From the NCBI GenBank assembly GCA_022825725.1, contig JAJDWE010000043.1:1-64000 (forward strand): a DNA stretch of 64,000 nt, given 5' to 3'. Source of the stretch: Gemmatimonadota bacterium. Lineage in GTDB: Bacteria; Gemmatimonadota; Gemmatimonadetes; Palauibacterales; Palauibacteraceae. The position numbers and the translations under genes are program-made. Under the pieces are notes generated by a model. It had not been told where the DNA came from. It saw only the letters and a program-made list of their open reading frames with translations, and made no database searches. Below, one piece after another: positions 34,634 to 46,626 of this stretch; the first letter of the stretch is position 1; the number at the start of each line of letters is the position of its first letter.

Positions 34634-35430
34634 CAGTCTCTGCGCGGCCTCGTGCCGCGCGCCGGCGTGCGCGGCTGGCGGTTCACCTCGTCCTGATCCT
34701 CCCGGATCGCGTCCAGCAGTCGTTCCGCCTCCTCTCTCGTCATCTCTCCGGGTGGAGGCGTGCCCTCCTGCGGCTCCGGTTCCGGTTCGTCCGGATTCTG
34801 CTCGGGGTCCTCCTCGGGGTTCGGCTGGTTCCGCGGATCCTGGTTCGGGTCCTGTTGAGGCTGATCCTGCGGGTCCTGTTCGGGGTTCTGGTCCTGCTCG
34901 CCGCCCTGCGGTTGCTGCTCGCTCTCGTCCTCGTTCTCCTCGTTCTCGCCGTCGCCCTGCTGCTGTTGCTGTTGCTCCTGCATCTGTTCGAGCACGCGCT
35001 CGAGGTTGTGTTTGGCGTCGGCGTCCGCCGGGTTGGTCCGCAGCGCCTGCTTGAAGGCCTCCAGACTTTCGGGGAGCGCCCCCTGCCGGTAGAGCGTGTT
35101 CCCGAGGTTGTACCAGGCGGCCGACGCCAACTCCGGGTCTCCGCTCTCCACCGCGGCGCGGAAGGACTCCAGCGCGGACTCGTAGTCCTCGCCCTGATAG
35201 AGCGCGTTCCCATCGTTGAACCGGATGACGGGGGAGTCGGGGGCCTCGAGGAGCGCCTCGAGATACTTCTCGTGCGCCTCGGCGAAGCGTCCCTCCTCAT
35301 AGAGGCGGTTCCCGTCGCGCGTCTCCGCGCGTCCCGCCTGCCCGCGCGCCTCGGCGGGCACCCAGGCCGCGAGGGCCGCGATGGCCATGGGCAGCCACAG
35401 TCGCCGGCTGCCGCCGCGCGTCGTACTCAC
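34630..35430 (-). CDS. BatC-type TPR protein with Gln/Glu-rich tail
   Basis: 266 residues from GTG 35430, fixed by GGGAGG eight bases upstream. After a signal peptide come TPR units (GNRLYEEGRFAEAHEKYLEA, NDGNALYQGEDYESALESF, YNLGNTLYRQGALPESLEAF). Residues 155-235 are almost entirely Q, E, N, D, P, partly coded by a CAG-type trinucleotide tract (34960-34983), a normal but variable feature of BatC. TREEAERLLDAIREDQDEVN closes the protein as in homologues. It lies between BatB and BatD with four-base overlaps. Confidence 0.82.
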   Translation of the reverse strand: MSTTRGGSRRLWLPMAIAALAAWVPAEARGQAGRAETRDGNRLYEEGRFAEAHEKYLEALLEAPDSPVIRFNDGNALYQGEDYESALESFRAAVESGDPELASAAWYNLGNTLYRQGALPESLEAFKQALRTNPADADAKHNLERVLEQMQEQQQQQQGDGENEENEDESEQQPQGGEQDQNPEQDPQDQPQQDPNQDPRNQPNPEEDPEQNPDEPEPEPQEGTPPPGEMTREEAERLLDAIREDQDEVNRQPRTPARGTRPRRDW

Positions 35431-36458
35431 GAGAACCTCCCTCTCCAGACCCTCACCGTCTTCTTCCGGTCCGTCCACAGGCCTTCCACGAACAATAGGA
35501 GAATCGCCGCTCCGAGGAATATCTGGAACTGCTCCTCGTACCGGGTGACCTCGCGCGCGTCGATCTCCCGTCCGCCCAGCTCAGCCACCTCCTCAATGAG
35601 CGCCGTCAGCTCGCTCGCTTCGGGTGTGCTGCGGTAGAGCTGTCCGCCCGTTCGCGTCGCGATCTGCCTCAACGTCGTCTCGTCGAGCCGGGTCGTGACG
35701 ACGGCCCCCGCTTCGTCGCGCTTGAACCCGGCCGGCCTGCCCGCCGCGTCGTACTCGGGAATCGGGACGCCGTCCGTCGAACCGACGCCGACCGTATGGA
35801 TCGTCACCCCGGCCTCGAGCGCCCGATCCACGGCCGGCCCGATGCCCCCCTCGTGGTCTTCCCCGTCGGTCACGACGATGATGATGCGCTCCTCCACCGG
35901 CGCGTCGGAGAAGGCGTCGAGCGCGAGTTCGAGCGCGGCCCCGAGGTCCGTCCCCTGCACGGGCACGAGGTCCGTGTCCATCGCGTTGAGGAAGAGGCGC
36001 GCGGCCCCGTAGTCGGAGGTCAGCGGGCTCTGGACGAAGGCCTGGCCCGCAAAGGCGATGAGACCGATGCGGTCTCCGTCCAGCCGTTCGATGAGGCGCT
36101 GGATCTCGAGCTTCGAGCGCTGCAGGCGGTTGGGGGCGAGGTCCTCCGCCAGCATCGAAGTGGAGAGGTCGAGGGCGACGACGATGTCCATCCCCTCGCG
36201 GCGGACGGTCTCCACGCGCGAGCCGAACTGCGGGCGGGCGACGGCGACGACGGAAAGGCCGAGCACGGCGAGGAGTCCGACAGCCTTCCACGCCCGGGCC
36301 CGCGGGTTCACGCTCCGGCTCAGCTGGCGGACGAGCGCGAGGTCGCCGAAGCGCGCCAGCGCTCGCCGCCGCTGCGCCGCCCCGCGCCACATCAGTCCGG
36401 CGACGAGCGGGATGAGCGCCAGCCCGAAGAGCGCCGTGACGAACCCGAAGCGGAACAC
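35427..36458 (-). CDS. BatB-type von Willebrand A membrane protein
   Basis: 343 residues. Two N-terminal helices, then a VWA domain whose metal-ion site is DLSTSMLAEDLAPNRL, with the later TD in IIIVVTDGEDHEGG; a C-terminal helix (FQIFLGAAILLLFVEGLW) anchors it. It faces the periplasm. The pair with BatA is the core of the Bat system, linked in other bacteria to aerotolerance and envelope stress and energised by MoxR. The start overlaps no gene; 18 bases separate it from BatA. Confidence 0.87.
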   Translation of the reverse strand: MFRFGFVTALFGLALIPLVAGLMWRGAAQRRRALARFGDLALVRQLSRSVNPRARAWKAVGLLAVLGLSVVAVARPQFGSRVETVRREGMDIVVALDLSTSMLAEDLAPNRLQRSKLEIQRLIERLDGDRIGLIAFAGQAFVQSPLTSDYGAARLFLNAMDTDLVPVQGTDLGAALELALDAFSDAPVEERIIIVVTDGEDHEGGIGPAVDRALEAGVTIHTVGVGSTDGVPIPEYDAAGRPAGFKRDEAGAVVTTRLDETTLRQIATRTGGQLYRSTPEASELTALIEEVAELGGREIDAREVTRYEEQFQIFLGAAILLLFVEGLWTDRKKTVRVWRGRFS

Positions 36459-36476
36459 GATCTCGCCTCCCCCGCG

Positions 36477-37472
36477 CTACGGCAGTCGCCGCAGGACCGT
36501 CTGCGCGAGCCCGATCTCGAGCAGCAGCAGTCCGAGTCCCGCCGCTAGCGGGAAATGGAAGAGTTCGCCGTACCGGGTGAAGCTCTGCACGTCGATCTCG
36601 GTCGTCTCGAGGGCGTCGATTTCCTCGTAGATGCGTTCGAGACTCTCGCGATCCGTCGCCCGGAAGTACCGTCCTCCGGTGACTTCCGCGACCTCCGCGA
36701 GGGTGGGTTCGTCGACGTCCACCGGAATCGATACGAGGCGCCGCCCGAAGACGGGATCATCGACGGGAACCGGGGCCGTCCCCCGCGAACCGGCTCCGAT
36801 CGTATAGACCCTGACCCCCAGGGCCCGGGCCATTTGGGCGGCGGTCGCCGGATCGATCTCGCCGCGGTTGTTTCGGCCGTCGGTCAGGAGGACGATGATC
36901 CGCGATTCGGCCTGGCTGGATTCGAGCCGCTTGAGCGCGGTCGCGAGTCCGAGTCCGATCGCGGTCCCGTCCTCGACCATCCCCACCTCCAGTTCGGCCA
37001 TGACCGTGGAGACGGCCGGGTGATCGATCGTGAGCGGGGCCTGGGTGAACGCCTGTCCCGCAAACACGACGAGTCCGATGCGGTCGTTGCGCCGTCGCTC
37101 GACGAAGTCCGCCGCGACCTCCCTGGCGGCCTCCAGGCGGTTGGGCGCCAGATCCTGCGCGAGCATGGAACTGGAGATGTCGAGGGCCATGACGATGTCG
37201 ACGCCCTCGGTCGACACGTCCTCGCTCGTCGAGGCGGATTGGGGGCGGGCGAAGGCGACGATGAGCGCGCTGAGGGCGAGAAGTCGCAGCGCCAGCGGCA
37301 CATGGCGCAGGCGGCCCGTGCGCTCGGCCCCCGCGTGGCGAAGGAGCGCAAAGTCCGGGTAGCGCAGGGCACCGGCCTTCCGTCCTCCCTTCGCCAGGTG
37401 CCGGTAGGCGAGTGCCGGGACGAGGAGGAGCAGGAGCAGGAGAAACGCGGGATCCGCGAACCGGTGGATCAT
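36477..37472 (-). CDS. BatA-type von Willebrand A membrane protein
   Basis: 331 residues from ATG 37472, which overlaps the stop of the preceding gene by four bases. Same plan as BatB: N-terminal helix (FLLLLLLLVPALAYRHL), second helix, VWA domain with metal site DISSSMLAQDLAPNRL and LLTDGRNNRGEIDP, C-terminal helix (FPLAAGLGLLLLEIGLA). BatA and BatB share clear internal similarity (APNRL, RIGLVVFAGQAF), so they arose by duplication. Confidence 0.87.
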   Translation of the reverse strand: MIHRFADPAFLLLLLLLVPALAYRHLAKGGRKAGALRYPDFALLRHAGAERTGRLRHVPLALRLLALSALIVAFARPQSASTSEDVSTEGVDIVMALDISSSMLAQDLAPNRLEAAREVAADFVERRRNDRIGLVVFAGQAFTQAPLTIDHPAVSTVMAELEVGMVEDGTAIGLGLATALKRLESSQAESRIIVLLTDGRNNRGEIDPATAAQMARALGVRVYTIGAGSRGTAPVPVDDPVFGRRLVSIPVDVDEPTLAEVAEVTGGRYFRATDRESLERIYEEIDALETTEIDVQSFTRYGELFHFPLAAGLGLLLLEIGLAQTVLRRLP

Positions 37473-38428
37473 CGAACGGCCGCCCCGGTCGTCCGCTCCA
37501 CCAGCGTGCGCGCGTCGGCGAGAGTGATCCGGCACGCCGCGTCAGCGGGCCGCGACTTCGCGAACTTCACGAGGTCGCAGGCGTCCAGGAAGCGCTCGAA
37601 GGCCGTGCGAATCCCGGGGTCCACGCCGGCATGTCCCAGGCTCGAGATCACGTCCGGCGTGACCATCTCCAGCGCCCAGATCCGATAGCGCCCCTCGACG
37701 TACTCGCGGATGATCCGGGACACCTCGACGTGGTAAAGCTTGATCTCGCCGCGCTCCAGGAGAGGAGACGCCTCGAGCCGGTCCAGCGCCTCGATCGCGA
37801 CCTCGTGCGGCGGCCGGTCCGGGGCGGGCGGCCCGGAATCCGCCCGGGCCGGGGTGCGACGCCGCCGGCGCCCCCACCAATACCCCAGAGCACCGAGTGT
37901 CAGGGCGAGCAGGAACCACGGCCACAGGAGCAGCCAGTTGCGGGCAATCGCGCGCGGACCCTTCACGTCGCGGATGTCCCCGCTCTCGTCGAGCCCGACC
38001 GTGGTCACGCCGATGACAACCGGATCGGTGGAGACGGTGGCCGTCCCCTCGCCTCCGTCCGTGAGTTCCAGAGTGAAGGATGGGATCTCGAGTTCCCCTA
38101 GCTCGAAGGCGGTCACGTGAAGCACCGCCGCGGTCCGGGCGCCGTCCGCCGAGACTTCGGACGGGTCCACCTCGAGCGCCAGCGCCTCGAAGGGGCCCAG
38201 CGAGAGGGAATCGGTCCAGCGCACCGCGAGGTCCGCCGGGTGTTCGACGGAGAGCCGCAGCGCGAGCGGATCGCCCACGTGAATCTCCGTCGTGTCGGGC
38301 TCGATCGTGACCCGCGGCGATTGCCCCCGGAGCTCCCCGACCGCTCCGACCGCTGCCAGAGCCCCGCCCGCCAGCAGGAGGCCCACGATCGCGGCGCGCC
38401 GGTACCCGCCCCCCGATCCGCGATTCAT
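37469..38428 (-). CDS. BatD-like/DUF4381-type membrane protein of the Bat cluster
   Basis: 319 residues with a signal peptide, an Ig-like periplasmic domain (VTIEPDTTEIHVGDPLALRL), one span (NWLLLWPWFLLALTLGALGY) followed by RRRRR, and a cytoplasmic helical domain (IKLYHVEVSRIIREYVEGRY) seen in proteins between DUF58 and BatA genes. It is a second, short BatD-like component. The gene overlaps its DUF58 and BatA neighbours by four bases each. Confidence 0.7.
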   Translation of the reverse strand: MNRGSGGGYRRAAIVGLLLAGGALAAVGAVGELRGQSPRVTIEPDTTEIHVGDPLALRLSVEHPADLAVRWTDSLSLGPFEALALEVDPSEVSADGARTAAVLHVTAFELGELEIPSFTLELTDGGEGTATVSTDPVVIGVTTVGLDESGDIRDVKGPRAIARNWLLLWPWFLLALTLGALGYWWGRRRRRTPARADSGPPAPDRPPHEVAIEALDRLEASPLLERGEIKLYHVEVSRIIREYVEGRYRIWALEMVTPDVISSLGHAGVDPGIRTAFERFLDACDLVKFAKSRPADAACRITLADARTLVERTTGAAVR

Positions 38429-39300
38429 ATGCGCCGTCCCCGCTCCTCGAAGAAGCGCATCAGCGGCCGCAGGTAGGGGCGCCCGGGACTGAGGTCCACG
38501 ACGTCGACCTTGCTGCGCCGGAACGTCCGGTCCTGTCCCGCCCGCGCCTCCTCCCCGCGGCTCGCGAACGCGGCACGGAAATCCCGGTTCGAAGTGTCGA
38601 CGACGAGCCGTTCTCCCGTCTCCGCGTCTTCGAGTTCCACGAGGCCGATGGGCGGCAGTTCCGACTCCCGCCGGTCCCTCACCCGGAGGGCGACGACGTC
38701 GTGCCGTCGGCCCGCGACCCCGAGCGCCTTCTCGAAGGGTTTCGAGACGAAGTCGGAGACGACGAAGACCACGGCGCGCCGCCGGATGATGCGGGAGAGG
38801 TATTCGAGCGCCGCGCCGAGGTCCGTCGCCCGGCCCGCGGGCTCGTGGTAGAGCATCTCGCGCAGCACGCGCAGGACGTGCCGCCGGCCCTTCCGCGGCG
38901 GGACGAACTTCTCGACGCGGTCGCTGAAGATGATGAGCCCGACCTTGTCGTTGTTCTTGATCGCGCTGAAGGCGAGCAGGGAGCACACCTCGACGGCGAG
39001 GTCTCCCTTCATGCGCTCCCGCGTGCCGAAATTCCCGGACGCGCTCACGTCGACGAGGAGCATCACCGTGAGTTCGCGCTCTTCCTCGAAGATCTTGACG
39101 TGGGGCGTTCCGGTGCGGGCGGTGACGTTCCAGTCGATCGTCCGGATGTCGTCGCCGTAGTCGTACTCGCGGACCTCCGCGAAGTTGATGCCGCGTCCCT
39201 TGAACACGGAGTGGTATTCGCCCGAGAACACCTGGTCCACGAGCCCCCGCGTCGTGATCTCGATGCGGCGGACCTTCCTCAGGATCTCCCGCGGAATCAT
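38425..39300 (-). CDS. DUF58 domain protein of the MoxR/Bat cluster
   Basis: 291-residue cytoplasmic protein with a VWA-like core. The diagnostic DUF58 block is SVFKGRGINFAEVREYDYGD, then DIRTIDWNVTARTG and MLLVDVSASGNFG. It almost always follows moxR and is presumed to be acted on by the MoxR ATPase. It starts 17 bases after MoxR and overlaps the next gene by four bases. Confidence 0.88.
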   Translation of the reverse strand: MIPREILRKVRRIEITTRGLVDQVFSGEYHSVFKGRGINFAEVREYDYGDDIRTIDWNVTARTGTPHVKIFEEERELTVMLLVDVSASGNFGTRERMKGDLAVEVCSLLAFSAIKNNDKVGLIIFSDRVEKFVPPRKGRRHVLRVLREMLYHEPAGRATDLGAALEYLSRIIRRRAVVFVVSDFVSKPFEKALGVAGRRHDVVALRVRDRRESELPPIGLVELEDAETGERLVVDTSNRDFRAAFASRGEEARAGQDRTFRRSKVDVVDLSPGRPYLRPLMRFFEERGRRI

Positions 39301-39317
39301 CCCTCGATCCCTCCGGC

Positions 39318-40307
39318 CTACGGGACCTCGACGCTGTCGAGGATCCGGTTCACGACGTCTTCGCTCGTGACTTCCTCGGCTTCGGCCTCGTAGGTGACGA
39401 GCACGCGGTGCCGCAGGACGTCGAGGGCGACGGAACGCACATCCTCCGGCGTCACGTAGCCCCGGTGCCGCAGGAAGGCGTGTGCCCGCGCCGTGCGCGC
39501 GAGGCAGATGCTGGCCCGTGGCGACGCGCCGTAGGCGATGAGGTCGGCGAGGTCTTCGAGCCCGTGGTCGGCGGGCGCGCGGGAGGCGAAGACGAGTTCC
39601 ACGATGTACCGCTCGACTTGCCGGTCCATGTAGATGAGGTCGACGGCGCCGCGCGCCCGGAGGATCTCGTCCGGCGTGACGACCGTCTGCGGCTCGGGCG
39701 CGGACCCCACGCCCATGCGCCGCATGATTTCCAGTTCTTCCTCCTTGTCGGGATACCCGATGGAGAGCTTGAGCATGAAGCGGTCCACCTGCGCCTCGGG
39801 GAGCGGGTAAGTCCCCTCCTGCTCGATCGGATTCTGCGTCGCGAGGACGAGGAACGGGTCGTCGAGGGCGAAGGTCTCGTCCCCGATCGTGACCGTCCGT
39901 TCCTGCATCGCCTCCAGGAGCGCGGACTGGACCTTGGCGGGCGATCGGTTGATCTCGTCGGCGAGGATGATGTTGGAGAAGATCGGACCCTTCCGGGTCT
40001 GGAACTCGCTCCGCTTGGGGTCGAAGATCAGCGTTCCGGTGAGGTCGGCCGGAAGGAGGTCCGGTGTGAACTGGATCCTCTGGAAGCCGGTATCGATCGC
40101 CTGTGCGAGCGTCCGCACCGTGAGGGTCTTCGCCAGTCCCGGCACGCCTTCCATGAGCACGTGCCCGTCGGCGAGCAGGCCGATGAGGAGCCGCTCGACC
40201 ATGGTTCGCTGCCCCACGATCACGCGTCCCACCTCGTCGACCAGCCGCTCCACGAAGGCGCTCTGCTCGCGGATTCTCTCCTGTATCGCTTCGATGTCGT
40301 GACTCAC
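39318..40307 (-). CDS. MoxR-family AAA+ ATPase
   Basis: 329 residues from GTG 40307. Walker A is GVPGLAKT (residues 54-61), Walker B IILADEINRSP, and sensor-1 LVLATQNPIEQEGTYPLPEA. MoxR ATPases remodel partner proteins of VWA type, here those encoded by the seven downstream genes. It is the first gene of the cluster, so the operon promoter should lie in the 226 bases before it. A GGAGAGGA stretch lies 12 bases before the GTG, rather far, so a slightly different start is possible. Confidence 0.9.
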   Translation of the reverse strand: MSHDIEAIQERIREQSAFVERLVDEVGRVIVGQRTMVERLLIGLLADGHVLMEGVPGLAKTLTVRTLAQAIDTGFQRIQFTPDLLPADLTGTLIFDPKRSEFQTRKGPIFSNIILADEINRSPAKVQSALLEAMQERTVTIGDETFALDDPFLVLATQNPIEQEGTYPLPEAQVDRFMLKLSIGYPDKEEELEIMRRMGVGSAPEPQTVVTPDEILRARGAVDLIYMDRQVERYIVELVFASRAPADHGLEDLADLIAYGASPRASICLARTARAHAFLRHRGYVTPEDVRSVALDVLRHRVLVTYEAEAEEVTSEDVVNRILDSVEVP

Positions 40308-40533
40308 CGCGGTGCGTTCCTCTCCTCTCGAATCGTTTCTCCGAATGGTTTCGCGCGAAGGTCTCGAACAGCCCTGGATGCTCAACGCCGAAGGGGATCG
40401 GCGTTTGAAAGACATTTTATCGTTTTTGGGCGTTGCCCGAAGGGCTTCCGGCGGACGCGCGTTGACGCGGGCCGCGGCGGCGGGCACCGTGAATCCAGAC
40501 ACTCAGCCGCGGAGTGCCAACCGGGAGCGCCGA
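40308..40533. promoter_or_regulatory. Divergent promoter region, moxR operon and hydroxyacid oxidase gene
   Basis: 226 bases with one clearly AT-rich patch (40405-40430, ACATTTTATCGTTTTT). On the minus strand it reads GATAAAAT, a possible -10 for the moxR operon; on the plus strand no clear pair of boxes is seen. The rest is GC-rich. Confidence 0.3.
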
Positions 40534-41784
40534 ATGTACGACACGCCGGAGCCGGGACCGGAACCCAGGGGCGTCCACCGTCGCGACCTCCTCCGCTGGC
40601 TTGCCGCCAGCCCCCTGCTTACCGCCTTCGCCGGCTGCGACCTGGGCCTGGTCGGGCGCGCCCTGGCGCAGGAGGCGCCGGCACGATCGCTGGACGACCT
40701 CGTCGGGGCCGCGCAGGAGGCCCTCGACGTCTTCGACCTCGAGAGGGTGGCCGCGCAGACGGTCCCGACGGCGCACTGGGGCTACATCAAGACGGGCGTC
40801 GACGGGGAGGAAACGCAGGCGAACAACCGGGCCTCGCTGGATCGGATCTACCTCCGCGCGCGCCGACTCGTCGATGTCTCGAACCTCGACATGCGCGTCT
40901 CGATCTTCGGGCGGGAGTGGCCGACGCCGCTCATGATCGCGCCGGCGGGGAGTCAGGTCGGCTTCCACCGCGATGGCGAACTCGCGACCGCGCGGGCGGC
41001 CGCGGCCCGCAACCACCTGCAGACGCTCTCATCGGTGAGTTCCACGGGGGTCGAAGCGGTGAACGAGGCGCGGGGGGAGCCGGTCTGGTATCAGCTCTAC
41101 GCGCCCCGTCACTGGAACGCGACCGTCGCGCTCGTGAACCGTGTTCGCGAAGCCGGCTGCCCCGTCATCGTGCTCACGGTCGACCTCCTCGGCGGGAGCA
41201 ACCGCCTCACGCTGGAGCGCTACCGGCGAATCGACGACCGCAACTGCGAGAGCTGTCACCGGAGCGGCGGGCGGGCGGACCCCGTGAAGCCGATGTACGA
41301 AGGGCTGCCCCAGGGGCCGCCGGACAGCGGCGGACCGACGATGACCTGGGACTACATCCGCCGGCTGCGCGACATCACCGACCAGCGGATCGTCGTAAAG
41401 GGGCTCGTGACCCGCGAGGACGCGGAACTCGCTCTGGAACACGGCGTGGACGGGATATGGGTCTCGAACCACGGCGGTCGGGCGGAGGGCAGCGGACGCG
41501 CGACGATCGACGCGCTTCCCGAAGTCGCGGAGGTGGCCGGCGGCGAGGTGCCGATCATCGTCGACGGCGGCTTCCGCCGCGGGACGGACATCTTCAAGGG
41601 GATCGCACGGGGGGCGACCGCCGTCGCGATCGGGCGTCCCTACCTGTGGGGGCTCGGGGCCTTCGGCCAGGCGGGCGTCGAACGGGTACTCGAGATTCTG
41701 ATCGAGGAACTGCGGATCACGATGGGCGCCGCCGGGACGCCGTCACTCGCCGACATCGGCCCCCGTTCCATCGGCGTCGACTGA
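40534..41784 (+). CDS. FMN-dependent alpha-hydroxyacid oxidase with Tat signal and CxxCH
   Basis: 416 residues from ATG 40534. A TIM-barrel flavoenzyme of the lactate/glycolate oxidase family, complete in its core: LMIAPAGSQVGFH, WYQLYAPR, VVKGLVTREDAELAL, the catalytic pair His313-Arg316 in VSNHGGRAEGSG, and phosphate-binding PIIVDGGFRRGTD and GRPYLWGL. The N-terminus is a Tat signal (HRRDLLRWLAASPLL) ending in a lipobox-like FAGC at Cys35. In loop 4, where family members vary, it has NCESCHRSGG (Cys238, Cys241, His242), a c-type heme attachment motif. If used, it would make a flavocytochrome that passes electrons to the respiratory chain rather than to oxygen. Confidence 0.85.
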   Translation: MYDTPEPGPEPRGVHRRDLLRWLAASPLLTAFAGCDLGLVGRALAQEAPARSLDDLVGAAQEALDVFDLERVAAQTVPTAHWGYIKTGVDGEETQANNRASLDRIYLRARRLVDVSNLDMRVSIFGREWPTPLMIAPAGSQVGFHRDGELATARAAAARNHLQTLSSVSSTGVEAVNEARGEPVWYQLYAPRHWNATVALVNRVREAGCPVIVLTVDLLGGSNRLTLERYRRIDDRNCESCHRSGGRADPVKPMYEGLPQGPPDSGGPTMTWDYIRRLRDITDQRIVVKGLVTREDAELALEHGVDGIWVSNHGGRAEGSGRATIDALPEVAEVAGGEVPIIVDGGFRRGTDIFKGIARGATAVAIGRPYLWGLGAFGQAGVERVLEILIEELRITMGAAGTPSLADIGPRSIGVD

Positions 41785-41819: not shown

Positions 41820-42287
41820 TCAGACTATTCCCAGGAAGCGCAGGATGAACCCGATCGTGAGGGGAATGATGGGGAGCAGGGTCACGCCGACGGCGATGGT
41901 CACGCCCGCCCGAAAGAAGAGGGGACCGGTCGGAAGGAGCCGTCTGCCGAACAGCTTCTCGAGCGCGATCTCGGCCACGGGACCCAGCGAGTAGCACACG
42001 TTCGCCCACACGGCCCACCAGATCACCGCGCGAACCAGATCGACCGGTTGAAGCGTCGCGACGACCGCCGTGAGCGCCGCGCCGAACGTCAGCGTCACGA
42101 GTCCGGTGGCGCCGACGATGAGGTTGTAGGGAAGGCGGCGTTTCTCCCACCAGCCGATGATGGCGCCGACGCGACGCTCCGCCGGCTCGGGGTAGAGGAA
42201 ATCGGCGAGGAAGGTGCCTCCCGGGACGATGCCCCGGGCCAACTCGGCGGCCGGAGCGGGATCTGTCAGGGTGTCGTGGCTCGTCAC
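41820..42287 (-). CDS. Integral membrane protein of unknown function
   Basis: 155 residues, four hydrophobic helices (YNLIVGATGLVTLTFGAALT, VIWWAVWANVCYSLGPVAEI, FFRAGVTIAVGVTLLPIIPL, FILRFL) after a soluble 45-residue N-terminus with the segment YPEPAERRVGAIIGWWEKRR. No family is recognised. Convergent with the hydroxyacid oxidase, with 35 bases between stops. The start ATG 42287 lacks a strong ribosome site. Confidence 0.6.
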   Translation of the reverse strand: MTSHDTLTDPAPAAELARGIVPGGTFLADFLYPEPAERRVGAIIGWWEKRRLPYNLIVGATGLVTLTFGAALTAVVATLQPVDLVRAVIWWAVWANVCYSLGPVAEIALEKLFGRRLLPTGPLFFRAGVTIAVGVTLLPIIPLTIGFILRFLGIV

Positions 42288-44309: not shown

Positions 44310-44954
44310 TCAGGGAATCCTGTTCAGCATGTCGCGCATGCGCAGGATCTCCATGTCCTGGTCCGCGTCCACATCCGCCGCGAACCGAAATATCTCCGTC
44401 TCCTGGCCTCCGCCCGGACTCCCGAACAGCTCGGCCACCATCGTCAGGGCGCCCTGATGATGCTTGATCATCCCTTCCAGGAAGAGCCGGTCGAACCCGG
44501 AGCCGCGTGCGGCAGCGAGGGCGTCCATCTCCTCGCGGGACAGCATCCCCGGCATGAGTTCGCCTTCGCCGAGTCCGTGTGCGTGACCGGCCCCCATCAT
44601 CGGAGCCGTCTCGCCGCGGCGCTCGAGCCAGCGCGTCATCCACGCGATCTCGTCCCGCTGGGAGATCTCGATCCGGCGTCCGAGCAGGAGCAGTCCCTCG
44701 TGCTCCGTCCGCTCCGGGATGAGCGCGGCCATCTCCAGCGCCTGGGCATGGTGCGGGATCATCCCCTGCATGAAGCGCACGTCCGCCGGGGTGTGCGTGA
44801 CGTGCTCGAGGGATGCGGCTTCCTCCACGGTCAGGACGCGCGTGGCCTCGCCGGGCGCGCCGGGCTGGACCGTCCGCATCTCCCCCTCGCCCGCCTCGCC
44901 GCCGCACGCGGCAAGCGCCAGGCACAGGAGCCCGATCCCGTGCCTGAATCTCAT
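44310..44954 (-). CDS. DUF305 lipoprotein
   Basis: 214 residues from ATG 44954. The lipobox is LALAAC near residue 17. Two DUF305 halves are seen: FMQGMIPHHAQALEMAALIP and FLEGMIKHHQGALTMVAELF, each with the paired-His/Met pattern; DEIAWMTRWL and QDMEILRMRDML complete the fold. DUF305 proteins are ferritin-like helical bundles, often next to copper-handling genes, and the His/Met content suits metal binding. It lies between the LVIVD gene and an amidohydrolase, all co-directional with short gaps, so probably one operon. Confidence 0.85.
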   Translation of the reverse strand: MRFRHGIGLLCLALAACGGEAGEGEMRTVQPGAPGEATRVLTVEEAASLEHVTHTPADVRFMQGMIPHHAQALEMAALIPERTEHEGLLLLGRRIEISQRDEIAWMTRWLERRGETAPMMGAGHAHGLGEGELMPGMLSREEMDALAAARGSGFDRLFLEGMIKHHQGALTMVAELFGSPGGGQETEIFRFAADVDADQDMEILRMRDMLNRIP

Positions 44955-44979
44955 TCCCGCGCCTTTCGTCCGTCGGTCG

Positions 44980-46626
44980 CTAAGCATCGTCCTCCGTCGC
45001 GAGTTGGGCCTTCGCCGCCCGCACCATCTCGCGCACGTCGGCCAGCAGCTGCTTCGCGTCGTAGATGATGCCGTCCTTGATCGTGTACTTGATGCCGCCG
45101 ATGCGCTCGGTCTCGCCGGTCTCGTCGTTGAGCTTCAGCGCGCCGGTTCCGTACAGGACCTTGAGGTTCTGAAGCGGGTTCTCCTCGACGACGACGAAAT
45201 CGGCCTTGAGCCCGGCGCGGATCATCCCGAAGTCGGGCGGGAGCCCCTTGGGGTCGTTCAGCTCCTGCGCCCCGTGCAGCGTGGCCGAGCGGATGACCTC
45301 CACCGGGTGGAACCCGGCCTCGCGCAGCAGTTCGAACTCCCGGATGTAGTCGAAGCCGTACAGCTTGTAGATGAAGCCCGAGTCCGAGCCCGTCGTCACC
45401 CGGCCGCCGCGGTTCTTGTACTCGTTGAGGAACTGCATCCACACCTTGTAGAAGTTCCGCCACGCGACCTCATCCTCGCTCGTCCAGTAGAACCAGTACG
45501 AGCCGTGTGCGGCGCGGCTCGGTTGATAGAAGTCCCACTGGCTGGGGAGCGTGTACTCCTCGTGCCAGTCCGCGTTGCGGGCCGCCATCACGTCCCGGCT
45601 CGCCTCGTAGATCGTCATCGTCGGATCGATCCCGAAGCCGAGTTCGAGGAAGCGCTCCTGGAGCGCGTTCCAGCTCTCCGAGCCGGGGCCGTCGACCTGA
45701 TCCCAGAGCCGGGCCACGTGGCCGAAGCGGTGCTGCTCGTTCTGGTAGTTGTAGTCGAGCGGCCAGTCCTGGACGCTGTAGTCGGACAGCATCGACTCGA
45801 ACAGGCCGTAGTAGTGGGTCATCATGTCGAGCCCGATCTCGGCCGCATCGAGCGCGGTCATCCGCCCCACGCCCATCTGGCCGAGGTGGGCCACGGTGCC
45901 GAGCCCGTGCTGGCGCGCCTCGTCGATGAGCGCCTCCATGACGGGCGGGTCGAACGACCCCAGCTTGAGGCCGTCGATCTTCTGCCCCTCGACCTCCTGC
46001 GCCGCGGCCCAGCGCACCCACTCGCGCGCCCTTTCCGGCGTATTCACCCCGCCCTGGCCCCAGGCCTCGCCGGGCCGCGCGTAGGTGTACATGCGCGGGG
46101 CGACGATCTCGTTGCGCGCCGCCTTCGCCTTCTCCTCAAGCGACCACATCATCGGTCCGTGGCCCACGCCGCGGGAGGTCGTGATCCCGTGCGCCATCCA
46201 CAGCTTGTAGACGTACTCCGGCTGCGACGCCTTGGGGACGCCGCCCGTGTGCGCATGCATGTCGACGAAGCCGGGCATGACGAAGTGCCCGGAGAGGTCG
46301 ATCTCGTGCACGTTCGCGCCGGAGTCGCCCTCGATCTCCAGCTCGGGCCGGCGATCCTCGTTGATGTCGAGTCCCGGGTAGCCGACGGTGCTGACGGAGA
46401 CGATGCGGTCGCCCTCGATGACGATGTCCATCGGGCCCTGAGGCGGCGCGCCCGTGCCATCGATAATCGTGACGCCGCGGAGAATCAGGCGGTCGTAGGG
46501 ACCGTCGCCCTCGTCGTCGCCGCGCGGAGTCGTTTCCGGGCGTCCGTCCTGCGCGAGCACAGATCCCGCGCCGAGGAGGAAGACCCCGGCCGCCACCAGC
46601 AGCCCGTAATGCCGTTTCGTTCTCAT
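44980..46626 (-). CDS. Secreted amidohydrolase
   Basis: 548 residues from ATG 46626 with signal peptide ending SVLA-QD. Metal motif HxH in FVMPGFVDMHAHTGGVPKA, further ligands in GTVAHLGQMGVG and MMTHYYGLFE, and Asp in TTGSDSGFIYKLYGF; the C-terminus has GMIRAGLKADFVVVEENPLQ. It belongs to the imidazolonepropionase/prolidase-type amidohydrolases that bacteria of this kind often export in many copies. The substrate is unknown, possibly a dipeptide or a cyclic amide. It precedes the DUF305 gene by 25 bases. Confidence 0.82.
   Translation of the reverse strand: MRTKRHYGLLVAAGVFLLGAGSVLAQDGRPETTPRGDDEGDGPYDRLILRGVTIIDGTGAPPQGPMDIVIEGDRIVSVSTVGYPGLDINEDRRPELEIEGDSGANVHEIDLSGHFVMPGFVDMHAHTGGVPKASQPEYVYKLWMAHGITTSRGVGHGPMMWSLEEKAKAARNEIVAPRMYTYARPGEAWGQGGVNTPERAREWVRWAAAQEVEGQKIDGLKLGSFDPPVMEALIDEARQHGLGTVAHLGQMGVGRMTALDAAEIGLDMMTHYYGLFESMLSDYSVQDWPLDYNYQNEQHRFGHVARLWDQVDGPGSESWNALQERFLELGFGIDPTMTIYEASRDVMAARNADWHEEYTLPSQWDFYQPSRAAHGSYWFYWTSEDEVAWRNFYKVWMQFLNEYKNRGGRVTTGSDSGFIYKLYGFDYIREFELLREAGFHPVEVIRSATLHGAQELNDPKGLPPDFGMIRAGLKADFVVVEENPLQNLKVLYGTGALKLNDETGETERIGGIKYTIKDGIIYDAKQLLADVREMVRAAKAQLATEDDA

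Follow-up and report, generated by a model that had tools for sequence, protein, structure and literature searches.

A gene in the 64,000-nucleotide stretch of Gemmatimonadota DNA analysed here (the 'window') encodes a member of the FMN-dependent alpha-hydroxyacid oxidase/dehydrogenase family, as assigned from its sequence, that carries a CxxCH motif within loop 4 of the barrel and follows a Tat-type leader. The protein is probably a periplasmic flavocytochrome, in which a c-type heme borne on that loop would carry electrons from the FMN to a cytochrome c and onward to a terminal oxidase. The comparisons described below suggest that what is new here is the presence of a heme-attachment motif within the active-site loop of a well-known enzyme family.

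The gene is a complete open reading frame of 416 codons plus stop, as read from the ORF list and its translation, and same-genus relatives share the start that yields a protein of this length. The Pfam family FMN_dh (PF01070) covers residues 73-413 (E = 8.9e-107; 357.6 bits, against a cut-off of 24.9), and the catalytic residues of the family (Y84, Y189, D217, R224, K289, H313 and R316) were all located by alignment, which bears out the earlier description of an intact barrel of the lactate/glycolate oxidase type; oxidation of a hydroxyacid is the predicted activity. The corresponding features are:

40534-41784, + strand: the gene, encoding an FMN-dependent alpha-hydroxyacid dehydrogenase/oxidase, predicted to be Tat-exported, with CxxCH in loop 4 (from the ORF and PF01070)
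40783-40785, + strand: Y84, equivalent to Tyr24 of glycolate oxidase and Tyr40 of lactate oxidase (by alignment; 115/116 in the clade described below)
41398-41481, + strand: K289, H313 and R316, catalytic residues of the family (each 116/116 in that clade)

The lactate dehydrogenase/oxidase models of NCBIfam match far under their cut-offs (at best 208 bits versus 376), so that the protein belongs to none of the subfamilies named there, and annotation pipelines would miss the heme because the gene matches only such general models, below their cut-offs. A tryptophan unique to glycolate oxidases, W108 in the spinach enzyme, is described in passages of PMC10153336; the aligned position of the clade, 168, is Val in 100 of 116 members, and for that reason the protein is not called a glycolate oxidase. 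A Pfam search of the protein returned eight matches at E values up to 10, none of them to a cytochrome family, and a fused cytochrome c domain was thereby ruled out. The cytochrome b5 domain (PF00173) was also absent at E values up to 10, with the leader alone preceding the barrel, which ruled out identity with flavocytochrome b2; the protein is thus distinct from that enzyme, as had been claimed, both in lacking a b5 domain and in having its CxxCH in loop 4. Of the named relatives, those closest to the window's genome are Candidatus Palauibacter and other bins of Gemmatimonadota, at 94-98% protein identity (the window's own genome is in 84 contigs).

The motif on which the flavocytochrome reading turns lies where the sequence-only reading had placed it, as CESCH at residues 238-242:

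41185-41346, + strand: loop 4, residues 218-271 (in the structural model, between a strand at 211-215 and a helix at 273-281)
41245-41259, + strand: C238-E-S-C241-H242, predicted heme c attachment site (116/116 in the clade, 71/71 in the upper tier of the phylum scan)

A chance occurrence was ruled out by its conservation, together with an expectation of only about 0.0007 CxxCH motifs for a protein of the same composition (4 Cys and 8 His). The fairest test of that conservation is a two-tier count from a scan of the phylum, in which 298 genomes were searched with the window's protein and the scores fell into two tiers separated by a gap. The upper tier consists of 70 rows scoring at least 306.9 bits, with the remaining rows at 253.8 bits or less, and was brought to 71 by a truncated row (G109, 49% identical) that had scored in the lower part. 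Every one of the 71 was read and carries CxxCH in the loop, and the motif was found in none of the 34 rows read among the 76 of the lower tier. A separate named collection has CxxCH at 70 of its 76 loci, a count that is not circular because the search peptides exclude the motif; the six loci without it (L102, L103, L104, L106, L109 and L110) are 34-38% identical to the window's protein.

For residue counts and trees, 25 identical and three partial rows were dropped from 136, and 55 rows were added (one of them identical), for a total of 162; a truncated row with CxxCH (L168) was excluded, which left 116 proteins with the motif and 45 without. The set of 116 is defined by CxxCH, and what was tested is that the motif occupies the same place in all of its members and that they form a single clade. 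In a tree of 161 proteins built without the leader, column 81 and loop 4, a single branch (SH-aLRT 99) separates them from the rest, with one change, and the same branch has a value of 98 in a smaller tree. Pairwise identity within the clade extends down to 41% (median 56%), and its members are labelled as Gemmatimonadota, Acidobacteriota, Pseudomonadota, Bacteroidota and Verrucomicrobiota, all from metagenome bins; the last two phyla are represented by one locus each, where a binning error is therefore possible. The relatives as a whole come from metagenome bins or other genomes, and are known from sequence alone.

Within the clade C238, C241 and H242 are each present in 116 of 116 proteins, and outside it in 0, 0 and 2 of 45 (nine of the 45 being gapped there), while the other aligned loop positions of the clade have a mean top-residue frequency of 0.51. 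The cysteines therefore do not vary freely among exported homologues, the point on which the sequence-only reading had asked to be checked, and a twin-arginine leader accompanies the motif; its main proposal, a flavocytochrome with a c-type heme beside FMN, is supported by this conservation, with the heme itself predicted from the motif. The two alignments used for structural modelling, A1 (51 rows) and A2 (96 rows), were picked from CxxCH-bearing rows, and invariance within them is partly a matter of that choice. In four Acidobacteriota bins (L102, L103, L104 and L110), two FMN_dh-like genes without CxxCH stand in tandem; these form two long branches beside the CxxCH clade in the midpoint-rooted smaller tree, and some of their products have no residue at the place of Y84.

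Only seven positions are fixed in at least 97% of the clade and present in at most 25% of the proteins outside it: H81, R111, R180, C238, C241, H242 and F377. Among these, H81 lies three residues before Y84, and is found in 116 of 116 proteins within the clade and in 1 of 43 outside:

40774-40776, + strand: H81, candidate distal heme ligand close to the active-site Y84 (from clade counts)

The single exception outside the clade (L169, from genome G140, family f4) contains PPAHWGYI, including H81, without CxxCH; its histidine is either convergent or a step towards the clade, and because of it the role of H81 as a heme ligand is kept merely as a lead.

The leader and the equipment of the genome agree with a periplasmic location. 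The relevant features are:

40534-40683, + strand: leader, residues 1-50, with R16 and R17 at 40579-40584 (an arginine pair followed by a hydrophobic stretch)
40636-40638, + strand: C35, the lipobox cysteine of the sequence-only reading (Cys in 27/83 clade rows)

The arginine pair and following hydrophobic stretch occur in 103 of 111 clade members; in the other eight the fetched stretch breaks off at an X or before the leader is complete, and five further members were too short to score. The Pfam TAT_signal model gives the window's own leader 11.6 bits, below its cut-off of 22.7, and a TatC gene is present in the same genome; the protein is predicted from its leader to be a Tat substrate. Of the combined Tat/lipobox leader proposed earlier, the Tat part is supported by the conserved arginine pair. 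The lipobox part is not a conserved feature of the clade: the cysteine of the FAGC found here lies at a position that holds Cys in 27 of the 83 clade members aligned and a gap in 10. In four loci of the same class (L114, L115, L116 and L118, family f6), a CxxC, for example in PCVGCGAPV, lies between the Tat leader and the barrel.

The genome also encodes cytochrome c maturation (Ccm) proteins, with CcmF and CcmE adjacent and a separate cluster of CcmC, CcmB and a CcmA-like ATPase, all at scores below the NCBIfam cut-offs (and, for the ATPase, with a general drug-resistance model scoring slightly above CcmA), as well as three COX1 matches. CcmF_C was found in 289 of the 298 scanned genomes, including all 71 with the CxxCH gene, so that its presence is necessary and not discriminating. 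The tension that had been noted between Tat, which exports folded proteins, and c-type heme, which is attached after export, is softened. Soluble c-type cytochromes are normally exported unfolded by Sec (passages of PMC3601427), which continues to weigh against the combination, but System I is described in the same source as recognising little beyond CXXCH and as loading heme even onto 12-residue peptides, and loop 4 is described as a mobile lid in relatives (portions of PMC4908395 and PMC7039449). Because System I asks for little beyond CXXCH and the loop is mobile or disordered in relatives, an FMN-loaded, Tat-exported barrel with a loose CxxCH loop would by analogy be a plausible substrate for System I.

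Two readings without heme bear on the same residues. CxxC motifs of periplasmic proteins are often disulfides, and the cysteines might form a redox-active or structural disulfide, with the histidine conserved for structure. The cysteines of CXXCH can indeed form a disulfide before heme attachment (PMC3601427, in part); but a disulfide would call for no histidine, and this one is just as strictly conserved as the two cysteines; CcmF is also present in all 71 genomes that have the gene, so that this explanation appears unlikely. Both cysteines and H242, perhaps with H81, could instead coordinate zinc, iron or another metal, and the invariance of all four residues in the clade, in a number that suits a tetrahedral site, would be in keeping with that; the exact order CxxCH is however the signature of heme c, export and the Ccm genes agree with heme, and the one protein outside the clade with H81 has no such cysteines, all of which makes a metal site very improbable.

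The structural models place the motif within a recognisable fold. The AlphaFold model made from 96 sequences has a mean pLDDT of 87.3 and superimposes on spinach glycolate oxidase (1gox) with Z 46.4 and an rmsd of 1.6 over 333 aligned residues; the structure matches listed are glycolate-, hydroxyacid-, lactate- and mandelate-oxidase entries and lactate monooxygenase, and flavocytochrome b2 is absent among the best 50 listed, which says nothing against it. In a first model, made from 51 sequences, residues 239-247 fall below pLDDT 50, whereas in the 96-sequence model the block 241-250 rises to 79, with a short helical turn at 238-240 according to DSSP; the latter is compatible with a defined conformation of the loop, and proves nothing with regard to heme. 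Clade members differ in the length of the loop segment that links H242 to W272, which ranges from 24 to 40 residues.

Alignment with lactate oxidase 7f22 pairs Y84 with Tyr40, R224 with Arg181, H81 with Gly37 and C238 with Met195, the last without gaps from strand 4 onward; this matching was counted by hand, and confidence in the alignment is low within the loop. As the surroundings of Met195 and Tyr40 in lactate oxidase are described as being near the active site (PMC4908395, in part), the CxxCH motif and H81 should both sit near the mouth of the flavin site, to judge from these comparisons. A more specific and tentative proposal, which we consider possible but doubtful, is that the loop acts as a redox lid, with H242 as the proximal ligand and H81, beside the substrate-binding tyrosine of the barrel, as the distal one; a bis-His heme c would then hold the lid shut over FMN and tie product release to electron transfer. 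The position and conservation of H81 faintly suggest such a role for it.

41293-41295, + strand: M254, weighed as a possible heme ligand and set aside (from clade counts)

Ligation by His and Met through M254 was also considered, as that residue is nearly invariant in the first 51 rows, but position 254 is M in 91, N in 19, A in 4 and I in 2 of the 116 proteins, with at least six changes on the tree; because 25 of 116 thus have N, A or I, it is not a universal ligand.

Taken as a sequence of events, the flavocytochrome reading would proceed as follows: (i) the barrel, with FMN loaded, would be exported folded by Tat; (ii) Ccm would then attach one heme c to the CxxCH of the flexible loop over the active site; (iii) FMN would oxidise an L-2-hydroxy acid in the periplasm; and (iv) the loop heme would take up electrons from FMN one by one and hand them to a periplasmic cytochrome c, from which they would reach a terminal oxidase. 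With transfer to the loop heme occurring one electron at a time, the enzyme would be a dehydrogenase and not an oxidase that forms H2O2. One further position fits, by analogy, with a dehydrogenase:

40948-40950, + strand: G139, at a place where relatives outside the clade mostly have Ala (from alignment counts)

It is Gly in 104 of 116 proteins within the clade and Ala in 39 of 45 outside. In lactate oxidase the substitution Ala95Gly reportedly lowers reactivity with O2, as does Gly at the equivalent place in mandelate dehydrogenase. A heme might alternatively be attached and serve as a sensor, as a peroxidase-like site that protects against H2O2 made by the enzyme itself, or as a structural lid, with the enzyme remaining an O2-using oxidase. 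The variation of M254 might leave an open coordination site in part of the clade; but the location of the motif on a lid beside the flavin site, and the replacement by G139 of the Ala of most relatives, a change said to lower O2 reactivity, both speak against this, and we regard this possibility as decidedly unlikely.

The protein has partial counterparts in several known systems. Glycolate and lactate oxidases (EC 1.1.3.15 and related) share its fold and catalytic residues, and differ in having neither CxxCH nor H81, while most of the lower-tier relatives read have Ala in place of Gly139. The loop 4 of (S)-mandelate dehydrogenase is a membrane-binding segment. That enzyme resembles the window's protein as a dehydrogenase of the family with an elongated loop 4 and an acceptor other than O2, but its acceptor is a quinone and it has no heme (passages of PMC8491902). 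Flavocytochrome b2 (EC 1.1.2.3) combines an FMN barrel of the same family with a heme from which cytochrome c receives electrons, but its heme is b-type and is housed in an N-terminal cytochrome b5 domain of its own (PMC8348568 and PMC8491902, each in part), whereas the window's protein has a Tat leader and a CxxCH inside loop 4 itself. Outside the family, a periplasmic redox enzyme with its own c-type heme on the same chain is described in part of PMC4770552, but it belongs to another enzyme family and uses a separate cytochrome c domain (CX2CHX50M). The lactate oxidase-cytochrome c complexes engineered as sensors (portions of PMC9915066) also wire an FMN enzyme to heme c; those are man-made and add a whole cytochrome domain, in contrast to the single loop of a natural enzyme.

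Among full-text, open-licence PMC papers (with most subscription papers outside that scope), no description of a natural heme c in the FMN hydroxyacid family was found, and papers of the same kind included none on Tyr143 and propionate. Passages of a survey of the family (PMC8491902) flag only cytochrome b5-type heme domains and a long loop 4 as variants, and the Palauibacterales paper makes no mention of cytochrome c, lactate, glycolate or dehydrogenase. Acceptors named for the family in that survey are O2, cytochrome c (for flavocytochrome b2) and quinone. If the flavocytochrome reading is correct, the family would have arrived at a fourth solution to the choice of electron acceptor by altering one loop, with heme carried on the lid and in the periplasm, and the protein would be a test case for loading by Ccm of a loop in a folded, Tat-exported protein; uncultured Gemmatimonadota, Acidobacteriota and others would then have a means of respiring hydroxy acids without importing them. 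Should the redox lid also prove true, it would show that heme can be added covalently to a pre-folded enzyme in a disordered loop, without a cytochrome domain. The protein might also offer a compact natural template for hydroxyacid sensors wired to electrodes, which are now made by joining whole cytochromes (PMC9915066, in part).

The neighbours of the gene in the window sit on the opposite strand:

39318-40502, - strand: MoxR-type AAA ATPase, on the upstream side of the gene
41820-42287, - strand: small protein without a Pfam match, on the other flank

The former belongs to a row of genes (35427-40502, - strand) for a MoxR-type AAA ATPase, a DUF58/VWA protein and VWA proteins that resembles known MoxR-VWA clusters, and 44310-44987 (- strand) encodes a protein that is DUF305 / CopM-like and begins like a lipoprotein. 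Scans for promoters, terminators and inverted repeats yielded nothing useful. No shared neighbourhood, and thus no hint to the substrate, was found among the homologue loci, nor a shared cytochrome c neighbour: of the 63 loci where the family gene was called (by a crude ORF caller), just 2 have a CxxCH gene next to it. Recurring neighbours at those loci are FKBP-type isomerases and a YceI-like protein. At L024, L025, L047, L053, L064 and further loci of family f6, the CxxCH gene is often followed on its own strand by a short gene or a pair of them, and the two that were scanned are FKBP-type isomerases (PF00254 in both) with lipoprotein-like starts. In a bin labelled SAR86 (L094), the next ORF, of 715 amino acids, has eight CxxCH motifs and is likely a multiheme cytochrome. 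In three gammaproteobacterial bins (L092, L093 and L095), two CxxCH paralogues from different subclades lie close together. The gene that they flank encodes a protein combining a Tat-like leader with a xylose-isomerase-like barrel (PF01261), and a gene for a glucose/sorbosone dehydrogenase (PF07995) lies in the vicinity.
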